Shown: piece by piece, positions 6,007 through 10,477 of the stretch | How positions within the stretch are numbered: the first letter of the stretch is position 1 | How the letters are laid out: each line of letters opens with the position of its first letter | NCBI RefSeq assembly: GCF_002072955.1 | Contig: NZ_LPUF01000001.1 | Span: 529,001 to 593,000, forward strand | Length of the DNA stretch: 64,000 nt | Direction of reading: 5' to 3' | Source of the DNA: Methyloprofundus sedimenti | GTDB lineage: Bacteria > Pseudomonadota > Gammaproteobacteria > Methylococcales > Methylomonadaceae | The notes under the pieces: generated by a model | Databases searched by the model: none | Told to the model about the DNA's origin: nothing | Seen by the model: only the letters and a program-made list of their open reading frames with translations | Position numbers and translations under genes: made by a program

Positions 6007-7334
6007 TGAATTACCTCAAAGCCTTGTTGTTCATAGATAGCTAAACGCTTGTTGAAGGCACTCACACCAAAGCCGCACTTATCGATAATGTCCAGGATAT
6101 AAGCAAAGCGTTTACCCGTGTATGGTCTACGCGCTCTACCTATCGACTGAATTAATCTAGTTGCCGCAGGGCTTGCCTTATCGATAACTGCCGATACAGG
6201 GCTCGCAAATATAAGTGATGAAAGCTTTGGTATGTCCACGCCTTCACTTAGTAATGATAATGTACCTATAATTAATTGAGCATCCTGTGATTTCTTCATA
6301 CGCTCAGCGCGAACCTTAGCAGGTAATTGACCATGCAATACCAGCGAATCAGTGCCACGCTCCTTAAGCATAGAGGCCAATAGCTCGCAATGCCTTATTT
6401 GGCTACACAAAATAATCGTCCCCATAGCCTGACTTGACTTAATGGCATATCCAACTATTTTTAAGTTTCTGCTTTCATCATCCACGAGTGCATTTAAAAA
6501 CTCAGCCCAGCTTTCCACCTCAGTATTAAATTCATGCTGCACTGTTTTAATGCGTACAGGCAACACTTTACCCTCTAATTGATCCTCTTTTACTTCAGAA
6601 CATATTTCACCAAGAGCCCCGTGGATCATAAACTCTAAATTGTCGCGCCTCTGAGGTGTTGCACTTAAACCATATCTATACTTGCAATTAAGTCCGTTTA
6701 TCACGGTAAATGCCTGGCTTGCTGGCAGATTGTGGCATTCATCAGCAATCACTAAACCATAATTAAGTTGTGAGCAGTCACGTTTATTAAGGGTCTGGGT
6801 TAATCCTATGGTGAACTGTTCTCCTTCAGTGCTTTTGCCACAACCTATAAGGCCAGCATCTAATCCCGTAAATTGTTTAATAGCACCAGTCCATTGATTA
6901 GCAAGGTCTTTAGATTTAACGAGTATCAAAGTTCGCTGTTGTAATTGTGATGCTAATGCAATGCCTGAAACTGTTTTACCCGCACCTGTAGCGGCAACAC
7001 AAACACCACCATTAGCAATAAGTGCCTTATTAACAAATTCGTGCTGGTAGTCTCTCAGGTCTCCTAAAAATGGGATATTTACAGGCACTTCATTGCGGTT
7101 ATCGATTACTTCGGGGCTGAATTCCTGTAATAGATATTCAAGTATTCCAATTGGTGCTGTAAGTTCTCTCGATTGCTCAATTAATTGAATATAGCGTTCA
7201 ACATTGTAGGTACTTCTGCCAAAATCTAAAGCATTCTGATACTTGGGATTATCAAAAGTGAATTGGTCAATAATCTTACGTTCATTATCGGGCGTGGTTT
7301 TAATTTCGATTTTGTTTGATAGCGTGATTTTCAT
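6003..7334 (-). CDS. SF2 DNA helicase (UvsW/XPB/type III restriction-like)
   Basis: From the ATG at 7334 the protein has 443 residues. Motifs in order are Walker A AATGAGKT (about residue 120), Walker B with DECH (ADECHNLP), motif III SATP (LSATPQRR), and motif VI QSIGRARR near residue 405. This is a two-RecA-domain ATP-driven DNA translocase or helicase of superfamily 2. In a satellite it probably helps replication or recombination of the element. The start was chosen because MKITLSNK is duplicated exactly at 7810; eleven in-frame codons upstream fall in the GGTAAC repeat array. The first 44 codons are repeated as a dead fragment at 7676-7810. Confidence 0.8.
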   Translation of the reverse strand: MKITLSNKIEIKTTPDNERKIIDQFTFDNPKYQNALDFGRSTYNVERYIQLIEQSRELTAPIGILEYLLQEFSPEVIDNRNEVPVNIPFLGDLRDYQHEFVNKALIANGGVCVAATGAGKTVSGIALASQLQQRTLILVKSKDLANQWTGAIKQFTGLDAGLIGCGKSTEGEQFTIGLTQTLNKRDCSQLNYGLVIADECHNLPASQAFTVINGLNCKYRYGLSATPQRRDNLEFMIHGALGEICSEVKEDQLEGKVLPVRIKTVQHEFNTEVESWAEFLNALVDDESRNLKIVGYAIKSSQAMGTIILCSQIRHCELLASMLKERGTDSLVLHGQLPAKVRAERMKKSQDAQLIIGTLSLLSEGVDIPKLSSLIFASPVSAVIDKASPAATRLIQSIGRARRPYTGKRFAYILDIIDKCGFGVSAFNKRLAIYEQQGFEVIQ

Positions 7335-7350
7335 AATAATATTTTTTATA

Positions 7351-7829: not shown

Positions 7830-8028
7830 TTTACAAATTTACAAACTATTGAAAGCCTTACGTATCAACGCTTACGCTGTAAGGTTATTTGTAAACTTTT
7901 GTAAGGACTGTAAAATTAATTACCTATATTTGAATTTTGTAAGGTCTTGTAAACTTTTGTAAGTTTTTAAAACCTTACACTACAGACCAGTATCTACAAG
8001 GCCTGTAGGTGTTTGTAAATTTGTAAGG
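7830..8028. repeat. iteron array C, TTGTAAAC/TTGTAAGG
   Basis: Copies of TTGTAA (or TTTACAAA on the other strand) occur at about 7830, 7838, 7889, 7899, 7937, 7947, 7956, 8013 and 8021, many 8-10 bp apart. The array separates the intact primase from the helicase fragment and overlaps the last codons of the primase (encoding the TLQIYK region). Same position and spacing as array B, but a different core sequence. Confidence 0.75.
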
Positions 8029-10477
8029 TCGGTTTTTCTGTTTTGAAGTACCAACACTCTTTTGGTTTGTGCTTATCAATCACTCTTGATATTTTTTTTC
8101 CTGAAAATCCATCCACTAACTTTAATTGCTCGAGTAATTCAGTTTTATTCCAGGTTTCATTAGTAGATTTTATTGCTGTCGGCATGTGGACAATCAGGTG
8201 ATGCTCATCATCACGACAAACGCCTTGTTGCTCGTTAAAACCATCGATACATTCCATGAAATAATCAGCTAACAATAACTCGCTCCTTGCTGTTTCAATC
8301 TTACTCATGGCCGATTGAAGGGTGAAATTAAGTAAATCATCTTTTATTGCTGGTTTAGCAATCTCCATGAATAACGAAACTCCAGCGTAGGCTACTGCAT
8401 GATTTTTGGCTATACGATCAATTCCCACACCCTTGGAGCGTAAATAATCGGCTGTTTCATTAATAACGGCATTAATATCTTTTTCAAAATGAACGCGATT
8501 GCCCAGGATAAAATGCCCTATGCCTGCCAGCTGCTCAGGTGAATAAGTTTTTAATTGTTGCCATGATTTGTAGGTATCGTCTAAACCATCATGAGTAAAT
8601 TTTATAGATACAACGCGCTCTTTGGCTGGTTTACTGACAAATTGCTCAACATTTTGCACAAATGCCAATGCACCTGTAAATTTAAGATCGTGCACCTGGT
8701 TATCATTTGTTGTTTGGGCCCGAACCTGTAAACTATTTCGGTTATATAGCGGCAATATCGAGTCATATTGAAATCTGCTATCATTTTTACGCCCCTCTAG
8801 CATTGCCGTGACCATGCTAGATTTTTGGCTAATAATTCTAAGTTCCCCTTTTTTAGTGTTGGCTCCACTCATAGCCAAGCCCTCAGAATCAATAAAGAAA
8901 CATCTATTGAGTGTTGTGGTTAAATCAGTTTTGCCGCAATGTGGATCACCATGAAAGCTCATGAACGGGAAGAACCCAAACTCCTTAAAAATGAGATGAG
9001 AGAAGCATGTTGCTATCCAAAACCCTAGAGCAAGCATGCCCTTATCACCGTATGCTCCATGCAGATCACTAATGAATTTTCCAGCATCGACATTATGAAT
9101 ACGGGTAACGCTCTTATCCTGCCCGCTAAATGGCTTTAGTCTGTATTGATGAAAGTAGCCATCTCTATCAATCCCGTGGTGATTCCCATTTTTGTCATAC
9201 ATAAAATTATTAAACACATAACAATCAGAATGAGAGTCATAGCCCAGTGCCTGGCACTCGCGAACTTTAATAGGATTTTTCTTGAACAAGTATTCTGCTA
9301 GCAAAGTAAGATCGTAGCCATTGCCAAAAAACAATAATCTGTATTGCAGTAATTTAGATTTAAAGTCATTGAGTGCTGAAAAGTCGGCGCCTTTAAAGCG
9401 TATCGTGTTTATGCCCTCACGATTTGATACGGCATTGATGATATGACACAAACGGCTTTCATATTGCAGGCTGGCATCCTCAATCGAATAGGCGATATCA
9501 AGTATGCAATCCAGAAGTCTAGTGACCTTATGCTTTTCCGGCCCATCGTCTTTTAATTCAAATGATCCTTTATACGTTTGCCCTTTAAACTCAAAAACCA
9601 TGTTGCTATATGGTCTTTGCTCACAGTATTTTTCGTAATAATCTTTTGCGCTATTTGCTAAAGCTAGGGATCCATTCCAATGACAACGCGTTAGTGTTTC
9701 GTTTTTTTTGTCACCAGATAAATCACCGCTTAGCAATAAATCATTCCAGTCTTTACCATTGGGTGGAATTCGCACATCAAAGCTAATTAAGTGCTCGGTA
9801 AGATATTTTTTAAACTTATTTAACGCTTTAATTCCAGCGATATCATTGTCAAAACCAAGTACGTAATTAACACCCGGTTTAAAACATTTTTCTGGATTAT
9901 GAACGCTTGATAGCGTAGCAATGGCGGGTAATCCAGATTGCTCTAAAGCTAGTGCATCAAAAATACCCTCAACAACATAAACTTCTTCGGCTCCTATTAC
10001 TGAATCAGTTTCGTAGCATTCGCCCTTGTAGGTTGTGAGCCTGGTTTTATTGCTACCCGTATAATCAATGAGTCGTTGGAATGTTACACCATCAAATTCA
10101 ATGCTGACTGTAGGATAAGTTTTCCCTTTTTCAGTCACAGAACCTTGAGAAAAATTAAGGCTTGCCGTATCTATCCCCCGAGCCTGCAAAAATGCCTCAG
10201 CTGTTGCACGTGGGTTCGTTGGCGTGGGTTTAAATCGTTCTTCAAAAGTGTTGAATAAATCAGGGTAAAGCTCGCGAGTTAAAGTCTTGGCTCCGCACTG
10301 ACTCATGCGATGACACATAACCACATTAGGCTCTTCGATATAGGCATACGCTTCATGTTTGCCGCAATCAGGACATACAATCCCGTCAATTTTACCCCCT
10401 GATTCCCGCGCCTTTGGGCTGTCGGACAATAAACGCTTTTTGATTTCAAGGTGTGTTTCTTTCCAAAAATCAGTCAT
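7994..10477 (-). CDS. primase-helicase (P4 alpha-like replication protein)
   Basis: From ATG 10477 the protein has 827 residues; an AGGGG ribosome site lies 8 bases upstream. An N-terminal zinc ribbon has CPDCGK followed by a further Cys/His pair (MCHRMSQCG). A TOPRIM primase domain follows at about residues 165-245, with VEGIFDALAL and LGFDNDIAG. A helicase region around residue 510 has Walker A HGDPHCGKTDL. The C-terminal tail (about 775-827) is the part that differs from the remnant at 7519-7677 and may be the origin-recognition segment. By analogy with satellite P4 it would recognise iterons, prime and unwind. It overlaps array C and is preceded by a coupled 40-residue frame. Confidence 0.8.
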   Translation of the reverse strand: MTDFWKETHLEIKKRLLSDSPKARESGGKIDGIVCPDCGKHEAYAYIEEPNVVMCHRMSQCGAKTLTRELYPDLFNTFEERFKPTPTNPRATAEAFLQARGIDTASLNFSQGSVTEKGKTYPTVSIEFDGVTFQRLIDYTGSNKTRLTTYKGECYETDSVIGAEEVYVVEGIFDALALEQSGLPAIATLSSVHNPEKCFKPGVNYVLGFDNDIAGIKALNKFKKYLTEHLISFDVRIPPNGKDWNDLLLSGDLSGDKKNETLTRCHWNGSLALANSAKDYYEKYCEQRPYSNMVFEFKGQTYKGSFELKDDGPEKHKVTRLLDCILDIAYSIEDASLQYESRLCHIINAVSNREGINTIRFKGADFSALNDFKSKLLQYRLLFFGNGYDLTLLAEYLFKKNPIKVRECQALGYDSHSDCYVFNNFMYDKNGNHHGIDRDGYFHQYRLKPFSGQDKSVTRIHNVDAGKFISDLHGAYGDKGMLALGFWIATCFSHLIFKEFGFFPFMSFHGDPHCGKTDLTTTLNRCFFIDSEGLAMSGANTKKGELRIISQKSSMVTAMLEGRKNDSRFQYDSILPLYNRNSLQVRAQTTNDNQVHDLKFTGALAFVQNVEQFVSKPAKERVVSIKFTHDGLDDTYKSWQQLKTYSPEQLAGIGHFILGNRVHFEKDINAVINETADYLRSKGVGIDRIAKNHAVAYAGVSLFMEIAKPAIKDDLLNFTLQSAMSKIETARSELLLADYFMECIDGFNEQQGVCRDDEHHLIVHMPTAIKSTNETWNKTELLEQLKLVDGFSGKKISRVIDKHKPKECWYFKTEKPTLQIYKHLQAL

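Follow-up and report, generated by a model that had tools for sequence, protein, structure and literature searches.

The window analysed here is a stretch of 64,000 nucleotides from Methyloprofundus sedimenti (contig NZ_LPUF01000001.1, positions 529,001 to 593,000), and an integrated element of about 14.85 kb lies on the minus strand at its left end. This element is best described as a phage satellite resembling the phage-inducible chromosomal islands (PICIs). Its replication module contains the end of a replication initiator (Rep) gene, an array of short repeats (iterons) and the start of a helicase gene twice in tandem, and the two copies differ in the C-terminal tail of the initiator (tails A and B) and in the iteron word (arrays A and B).

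Organization of the duplicated replication module

The order on the minus strand is the full primase/Rep gene with tail B, array B, a 44-codon helicase fragment, a primase fragment encoding tail A, array A and the intact helicase gene. The features, in window positions, are as follows.

7994..10486, minus strand: primase/replication initiator Rep (Toprim domain, helicase core, C-terminal winged helix) with tail B; Toprim_2 E 3.9e-12, phrog_1139 DNA primase E 1.4e-84
8106..8159, minus strand: primase-side copy of a 54-bp repeat in the full Rep gene, 53/54 identical to 7625-7678
8042..8221, minus strand: Rep tail B, predicted winged helix, from an AlphaFold2 (AF2) model of the C-terminal 107 aa and DSSP of the full model
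7831..8028, no strand: putative origin B, 12 iterons NYTTACA (CCTTACA five times), by word count
7679..7826, minus strand: second copy of the helicase start, comprising 44 codons and the 16 bp before them, 148/148 identical to 7203-7350
7678..7679, no strand: blunt joint of helicase codon 44 (type B copy) to the primase fragment with tail A, where the repeats abut
7519..7678, minus strand: orphan tail A, a primase C-terminal fragment within a 59-aa open reading frame (ORF) at 7519-7698 with a TTG start
7351..7554, no strand: putative origin A, ten exact GGTAACA plus one variant, with the layout of origin B
7203..7350, minus strand: helicase-side copy of the 148-bp perfect repeat, by sequence identity
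6003..7334, minus strand: intact SF2 (ResIII/DEAD) helicase after the origin; ResIII E 2.4e-20, Helicase_C E 3.4e-11

The initial annotation, made from the letters of the window, had described a tandem doubling of the primase-end/iteron/helicase-start junction bounded by a 148-bp perfect repeat. Both repeats and both arrays are found: 7203-7350 and 7679-7826 agree at 148 of 148 positions, and this repeat cannot be extended. The second, primase-derived repeat is near-identical as described, but it is 54 bp long (7625-7678 against 8106-8159, with a single mismatch at 7633) and not 53 bp long at 8105-8157. The helicase fragment (ORF 7676-7810, 44 aa) ends at the junction, and the repeats meet exactly at 7678/7679 with zero overlap and no filler. 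Orphan tail A corresponds to the last ~53 primase codons; probably a remnant, it has a 59-aa ORF in which the winged helix is missing its first strand and first helix. Between flanks that are 53/54 and 148/148 identical, the sequences of cassettes A and B agree in only 169 of 296 columns (57%). A relative (L003/L067), the primase of which is 77% identical to that of the window, carries a single tail-A/GGTAACA copy colinear with the A side, and its tail is 75% identical to orphan tail A. This supports the proposal in the annotation that recombination between two relatives, which would be close ones, gave rise to the element; the incompatibility of these relatives, also proposed there, is conjectural.

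The presence of two different iteron words is likewise confirmed: array A has ten exact GGTAACA and zero TTGTAA, with one CCTTACA in the A stretch, and array B has 12 TTACA sites and zero GGTAACA. The first two iterons of array A lie within the tail A coding sequence and the first two of array B within the 3' end of the Rep gene. Both tails have an iteron-coded end, which had been ascribed to one copy only: RGNKGNN at the end of tail A is encoded by GGTAACA and PTLQIYK at the end of tail B by CCTTACAAATTTACAAA. Array A is beyond chance, as the 7-mer AGGTAAC occurs ten times, a count seen in 0/1000 dinucleotide shuffles. Against 1000 such shuffles of array B, TTACAAA with eight copies is matched in 3/1000, the best 6-mer in 17/1000 and the best 8-mer in 59/1000; this enrichment is weaker because array B is AT-rich.

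The site offsets from the stop codon (r, reverse orientation) are -33, -24, 18r, 32, 43, 92, 102, 114, 156r and 165r in array A and -30, -22, 17r, 34, 44, 54, 83, 92, 102, 114, 153r and 161r in array B. For each of the ten A sites, a B site of like orientation lies no more than 4 bp away (random mean 4.7, p=1e-4), and for eight of the ten one lies within 2 bp (random mean 2.8, p=3e-4). On this alignment, the putative origins A and B are homologous and share one layout, and the iteron word differs throughout.

Rep and its C-terminal tail

Rep is 830 aa long as translated, and its M start is probably at 10477. An AF2 model of Rep, built with 12 natural rows, has a mean predicted local distance difference test (pLDDT) score of 83. 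Its best PDB matches are Cch of the staphylococcal cassette chromosome mec (SCCmec; 5dgk, E 1.4e-13) and Rep of the Staphylococcus aureus pathogenicity island (SaPI) SaPIbov1 (8tch, E 4.2e-12), and PriRep1 on DNA matches at a lower level (E 3.1e-6). Residues 763-815 are modelled as a winged helix consisting of a strand, two helices and a two-strand wing. In the AF2 model of the C-terminal 107 aa, the mean pLDDT of ten-residue blocks is 91-95 over residues 21-90. The key residues of tail B, R801 (8084-8086) and E810 (8057-8059), flank the wing loop.

No Pfam match to DUF927 is found in Rep. A P4 alpha-type primase was set aside because Pfam gives Toprim families alone at E <= 0.01; D5/P4 are the models that we presume a P4 alpha-type primase-helicase would match. 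Passages of PMC7581432 describe how the C-terminal domain of SaPI Rep recognises iterons directly downstream of its own gene, and how that of Cch2 binds the direct repeats downstream of its gene.

Relatives of the tail-origin module

Tails were compared with words in 43 origins that lie next to a Rep tail; these come from genomes, phages and viral contigs and include A and B of the window. The word of an array is its best 7-mer; the words were set in one frame blind to the tails, and a layout frame was also used. Two tail positions are denoted x, the residue at the wing base (R801 in tail B), and C-1, the residue that precedes the conserved C in the last strand. The words include GGTAACA, NYTTACA, CCTAACC, CCGTACA, AGTAACC, AGTTACC, AGTGACA, GGGGACT, GGGTGCA, CGGAACA, TGGAAGG and TGGAATG, and a tree of 41 Rep cores requires at least 29-30 changes of word.

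Left out of the 43 were L184, L191, L150 and L194, the tails of which repeat those of L183, L185 and L111 and the words of which match those partners; L006, with a primase broken by an insertion; L066, with a TTTGCAG array after a short Toprim ORF without this tail; loci with no clear array after the primase (e.g. L008, L009, L059-L065, L074-L078, L081, L083-L086 and L098-L107); and L155-L178, L112 and L114-L117 (27 without an array at the threshold, two unusable). A single-primase query of viral and genome contigs was unproductive, as were a helicase query and a back-translated tail pattern in viral contigs. A plasmid search gave four records, and phage searches gave for the most part records that had already turned up. 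A family search around G755 returned G755 alone, and a genus search around G1159 gave no new loci.

Some relatives differ in the genes around the module. L007 and L017 retain the tail and origin module, while their aligned Rep has no counterpart of the N-terminal CxxC region found in the window protein; the L007 ORF has a different N-terminal extension. In L208, a second C-terminal domain of the primase type is encoded by a stand-alone gene at ~4146-4650, which starts at the primase stop and precedes GGACACA iterons; it is possible that this tail is a natural origin-binding regulator. L207 has a stand-alone Rep-tail gene beyond the iteron array, within 1.5 kb after the primase stop at 4173, and its key wing position holds T and not R. 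Relatives of the SF2 helicase (L120-L138) come after several different initiator genes, many with their own iteron array (e.g. CGAACA, CGGACA, CGTTACA and CTTTGACA). This helicase thus marks replication modules.

Correspondence between tail residues and iteron bases

The initial annotation had suggested that tail and iteron type co-vary. Overall tail similarity does not predict the word: Mantel tests relating tail identity to word similarity gave r=0.13 (p=0.11, n=14) and r=0.085 (p=0.12, n=20). Because this was not significant, the correspondence was examined residue by residue, and at that level the suggestion is supported, since the wing residue predicts the word in held-out loci. Among 217 residue-base pairs, x against base 7 is the strongest (z 10.5) and C-1 against base 2 the second (z 7.1), with z taking no account of kinship. 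In the layout frame, R at x goes with A7 in 22/26 origins and K with C7 in 11/12 (R/K against A/C, Fisher 1.9e-7; within-clade permutation 0.0016), and the blind frame gives 21/26 and 10/12. K or R at C-1 goes with G2 in 16/16 and D or E with C2 in 3/3. In the clade of the window, both rules are obeyed by 7/7 origins, as they are in 8 of 5040 permutations when kinship is ignored. These origins, with x and C-1 in brackets, are as follows.

Origin A and L003 (R,K): GGTAACA
Origin B (R,E): NYTTACA
L005 (R,D): CCGTACA
L004 (K,E): CCTAACC
L007 (K,R): AGTAACC
L017 (K,K): AGTTACC

A and B thus have R and ..ACA in common; K in the one against E in the other goes with G against C or T at base 2. The sole pair with tails more than 70% identical among the first 14 origins is A and L003, and its word is common to both. 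GGTAACA also recurs with unrelated tails, in L057 and, if reversed, in L056. These correspondences suggest that single amino acids of the tail match single letters of the site in relatives.

Held-out tests and control for relatedness

The R/K rule was noted before seven new loci, which are also among the 43, were inspected. L206 and L209 fit, L206 being an exception in the automatic frame. In L208, the array after the second, stand-alone tail gene has GGACACA with R and fits. L210 (S) and L211 (V) carried no prediction, and neither has ..CA or ..CC in the layout reading.

For a second held-out test, H and Y were added to the rule and the procedure was fixed beforehand. The viral loci were the best 80 of 137 relatives; two at a contig edge and 32 duplicate tails left 46 unique tails, three sub-threshold rows left 43 with arrays, and x was readable in 40. 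R goes with CA in 30/30, K with CC in 1/1, H with GG in 4/4 and Y with TG in 3/4, a total of 38/39. Five tails identical to discovery tails (L258, L284, L285, L291 and L306) were dropped in a second count, which gives 27/27 for R, 3/3 for H, 3/4 for Y and no K, a total of 33/34. The miss is L279, which was called automatically as CTGAACT and in which CATTCCA also recurs. No prediction was made for L239 (W). The best words of the sub-threshold rows fit the Y rule in L270 and L276 (CATTCCA) and the H rule in L262 (ACCTTCC). In L263, L305 and L292, where x was unreadable by script, R with CGGAACA or TGGAACA is seen by eye and fits; these three were entered as R in the 84-row tables. The other residues (H, Y and W) avoid CA and CC in 8/9, and the W row failed in the blind frame. 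At C-1, N, R or Q goes with G2 in 31/33, the viral set containing no D or E tail. When relatedness is controlled on a joint tree of 84 rows, there are six supported independent pairs, of which on average 4.8 change the same way, 0.0 the opposite way and 1.1 are unchanged.

A second natural pair shows a similar pattern. The Reps of L233 and L239 differ at 19 of 885 residues, eight of them within the last 43 and including Y to W at x. L233 has CTGGAATG at 11 sites and L239 has CTGGTATG at eight, all of which coincide with L233 positions and differ at the same base. The remaining three L233 sites are degenerate in L239, and one retains the A. L238 is mixed, with ten copies of one word and one of the other. 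DNA identity between L233 and L239 is 91-99% from 1.5 to 0.2 kb before the stop codon and 73-91% from there through the origin. In this pair, tail and origin again act as a fast-changing cassette.

A model for two stacked specificity alleles

We consider that two tail-plus-origin specificity alleles are stacked in a PICI-like satellite and that the wing of the tail reads the iteron, with a probability of roughly 0.8. Rep would initiate replication at an iteron origin downstream of, and overlapping, its own gene. Wing residue x may set the last two bases of the iteron (R, CA; K, CC; H, GG; Y, TG) and C-1 base 2, with a basic or amide residue specifying G and an acidic one C. Contacts of Arg or Lys to G and of Asp or Glu to C are chemically usual. 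If the wing reads the iteron, tail and origin would form one specificity cassette, which would diversify faster than the rest of Rep. The element would hold two alleles in tandem, A (R,K: GGTAACA) and B (R,E: NYTTACA). Cassette B was probably brought in by a very close relative, through a homologous crossover in the primase gene and an illegitimate join that links helicase codon 44 to the primase of a resident A element. Origin B would then be served by the intact Rep, and the origin A array would have been kept while its full-length Rep was lost. The sequences show the tandem anatomy, the register of the two layouts and the prediction of words from residues in held-out loci; the DNA contacts, the origin activity and the direction and mechanism of recombination are what we infer from them. 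A wider proposal, which we regard as tentative and somewhat doubtful, is that the cassette is hypervariable with a simple wing code, that phages and satellites diversify it, the iterons of an origin changing together, and thereby avoid shared origins, and that the element is a natural two-cassette form resolvable to either specificity through recombination at its own repeats.

Several observations weigh against this model. Besides the lack of correlation with overall tail identity, the superposition of whole Rep on 5dgk and 8tch is loose (template modelling score on the query 0.36-0.37), and the isolated C-terminal model has no significant match in the PDB (best E 0.18). Base 2 of array B is C in 6/12 copies and T in 6/12. 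Tail A has only one same-type relative. L187 and L190 have near-identical tails, and their words, CCGAACC mixed with CCTAACC against CCTAACC, are one base apart. The exceptions among the 43 are L056, L058, L206 (frame) and L207 for R and L213 for K, and L092 (N) also has ..CA; in the first held-out test, L207 (R) and L213 (K) fit only partly. The acid-to-C rule has three cases only, all in the window clade and none held out. The viral held-out set is dominated by one clade with CGGAACA, in which H and Y were themselves discovered, so that the held-out counts overstate the independent support. The pairs that control for relatedness are few: the median sign-test p of the six supported ones in the 84 rows is 0.0625, and C-1 has three, 3 to 0 (p 0.25).

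An unlikely alternative is that the tandem is a two-state device, in which recombination at the 54-bp or 148-bp repeats resolves the element to pure A or pure B and orphan tail A is perhaps an origin-binding regulator. Deletion between either repeat pair (476 bp or 481 bp) would leave one complete cassette, both arrays look intact, and stand-alone second tail genes exist in L208, between primase and array, and in L207, past the array. However, perfect repeats fit a recent accident equally well, and the truncated orphan has only a TTG start. Moreover, a scan of 176 relatives up to 1.5 kb after the primase stop found a second tail only in L207 and, as a broken primase piece, in L191; more may be missed, because the scan filter missed L208. 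With the same limit, no second tandem of two origins is found in the 176 relatives, L207 and L208 not being such tandems.

It is quite unlikely that linkage alone accounts for the pattern, with tail and array travelling together on one exchanged segment and the iterons being bound by another protein (the product of 10741-11526 or of 11839-12819, or the helicase). Because the tail adjoins the array, any exchange carries both, and the general identity of the tail is uncorrelated with the word. Yet linkage gives no reason for a match between a single wing residue and particular bases, which is seen in several clades and again in held-out loci. A and B have the same helicase start, and the use of the C-terminal domain for iterons by Cch2 and SaPI Rep (PMC7581432, in the passages mentioned above) also speaks for the tail.

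An assembly artefact, in which co-existing A and B haplotypes were chained into a false tandem, is very improbable. Near-identical flanks with different middles do resemble a bubble in an assembly graph, but a chained bubble would duplicate the entire shared flank, whereas each of the repeats has a blunt end, the one at helicase codon 44 and the other at a single primase codon, so that a real junction is needed; in addition, the contig is 2.9 Mb long, and the genome, in six contigs, has a completeness of 100 and a contamination of 1.02. Mutation of a duplicated origin in place, without exchange with a relative, would suit the layout register of A and B and the shared L233/L239 sites, which keep their positions with one base changed, but it is hardly credible, since a helicase repeat of 148/148 beside a cassette of 57% identity means that the divergence of the cassette can hardly postdate the duplication.

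The satellite element and its surroundings

The element was initially treated as a generic replicon; it is instead a PICI-like satellite with a SaPI-Rep-like initiator, a description that rests on its size of ~14.85 kb and on the lack of capsid, portal and large terminase among the ten element proteins scanned against PHROGs (five small element ORFs were scanned against Pfam only). A full prophage was set aside on the same scan and because the element apparently ends just left of the window. The other annotated features are as follows.

14728..14741, no strand: putative right attachment repeat TTGGTACACGTTTT, a 14-bp exact direct repeat
13393..14658, minus strand: tyrosine integrase; Phage_integrase E 1.3e-15, Arm-DNA-bind_3 E 1.3e-17
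11489..11695, minus strand: AlpA-type regulator; Phage_AlpA E 9.5e-7, better than the curated cutoff
639..1172, minus strand: terminase small subunit homologue; phrog_309 E 3.3e-40

The left copy of the 14-bp attachment repeat lies ~106 bp beyond the left edge of the window. When the two gaps are compared, this repeat length is matched by 1/500 shuffles, and a further 14-bp match exists within the element (14810 with 11367). The element ends are provisional because the repeat is short and another 14-bp match lies inside. The ORFs on both sides are presumably chromosomal. Features of PICIs present here are an integrase with attachment repeats (~15 kb), an AlpA-type regulator, and pri-rep followed by an iteron origin with iteron sets around an AT-rich region; in passages of PMC6092414, PICI origins consist of an AT-rich region flanked by two iteron sets.

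PICIs may carry terS and are without structural or lysis genes; here a terS homologue is present, but the product of 2636-4732 resembles a tail lysozyme/baseplate hub (phrog_27932 E 8.3e-18). A RelB-like antitoxin and ParE-like toxin pair lies at 12929-13361 in the satellite. A second repeat array with TGTGAATTTATTTCTACAG-like units, recognised by eye, extends over 5068-5960, within and upstream of a 254-aa gene of unknown function (5068-5832), and could be a partition or regulatory site. Two identical copies of a 333-aa transposase-like ORF, which we take to be IS110-like, lie at 22905-23906 and 35569-36570. The chromosomal part has at 43636-46424 two similar adjacent genes in tandem, presumably RnfC-like.

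Significance and comparison with known systems

This locus stands out for its two stacked specificity alleles and for a residue-to-base code that can be followed through its relatives. They bear on the question of how an initiator and a dozen scattered iterons can switch specificity jointly without a non-replicating intermediate. Natural matched pairs are on offer in A and B, within one satellite, and in L233 and L239, the Reps of which are 98% identical. The code is a short, testable residue-to-base rule, and it suggests that the replication compatibility of phage satellites may be readable from sequence. Origin recognition by the C-terminal domain is already in print for the SaPI type (passages of PMC7581432), and no residue-to-base code for SaPI/PICI-type Reps was found described in the titles, abstracts and passages of the open-access literature covered.

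The Rep-ori systems of SaPIs and PICIs (SaPIbov1 Rep, 8tch; PriRep1, 7pds; E. coli PICIs) share with the element an initiator helicase with a C-terminal origin-binding domain, here predicted, an iteron origin directly after the gene with iteron sets around an AT-rich stretch, AlpA, an integrase and a small terminase. PriRep1 is, as we take it, from SaPI5. Unlike these systems, the element has a Toprim primase fused to the helicase core, whereas SaPI primases are of the archaeo-eukaryotic primase type (passages of PMC7581432). Further differences are an additional SF2 helicase behind the origin, the tandem of two allelic cassettes and a methane-oxidising Methylococcaceae host. SCCmec Cch (5dgk) is the closest solved fold to the Rep model, and Cch2 binds its downstream repeats through its C-terminal domain, a role that is predicted for the tail of Rep; unlike the window element, Cch/Cch2 systems are not phage satellites and have a separate primase and a single putative origin.

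RepA of the PICI-like element (PLE) of Vibrio cholerae has a specificity domain that covaries with the origin and is swapped between elements, a matched pair being needed for replication; unlike Rep, it is of the RepA_N family with an N-terminal variable domain and ~30-bp iterons, and has no two-cassette tandem (passages of PMC8263062). The Pseudomonas phages phi3, BIBS67 and PaBSM-2607-JFK have a primase of the same family with 7-bp iterons after the gene (CGGAACA or TGGAAGG), but they are ~30 kb phages, most under Peduoviridae, with one origin each and a primase 26-27% identical to that of the window. Initiator and iteron also co-vary between relatives in the geminivirus Rep and lambdoid O systems, in which the protein folds and the modes of replication are unrelated to those considered here.

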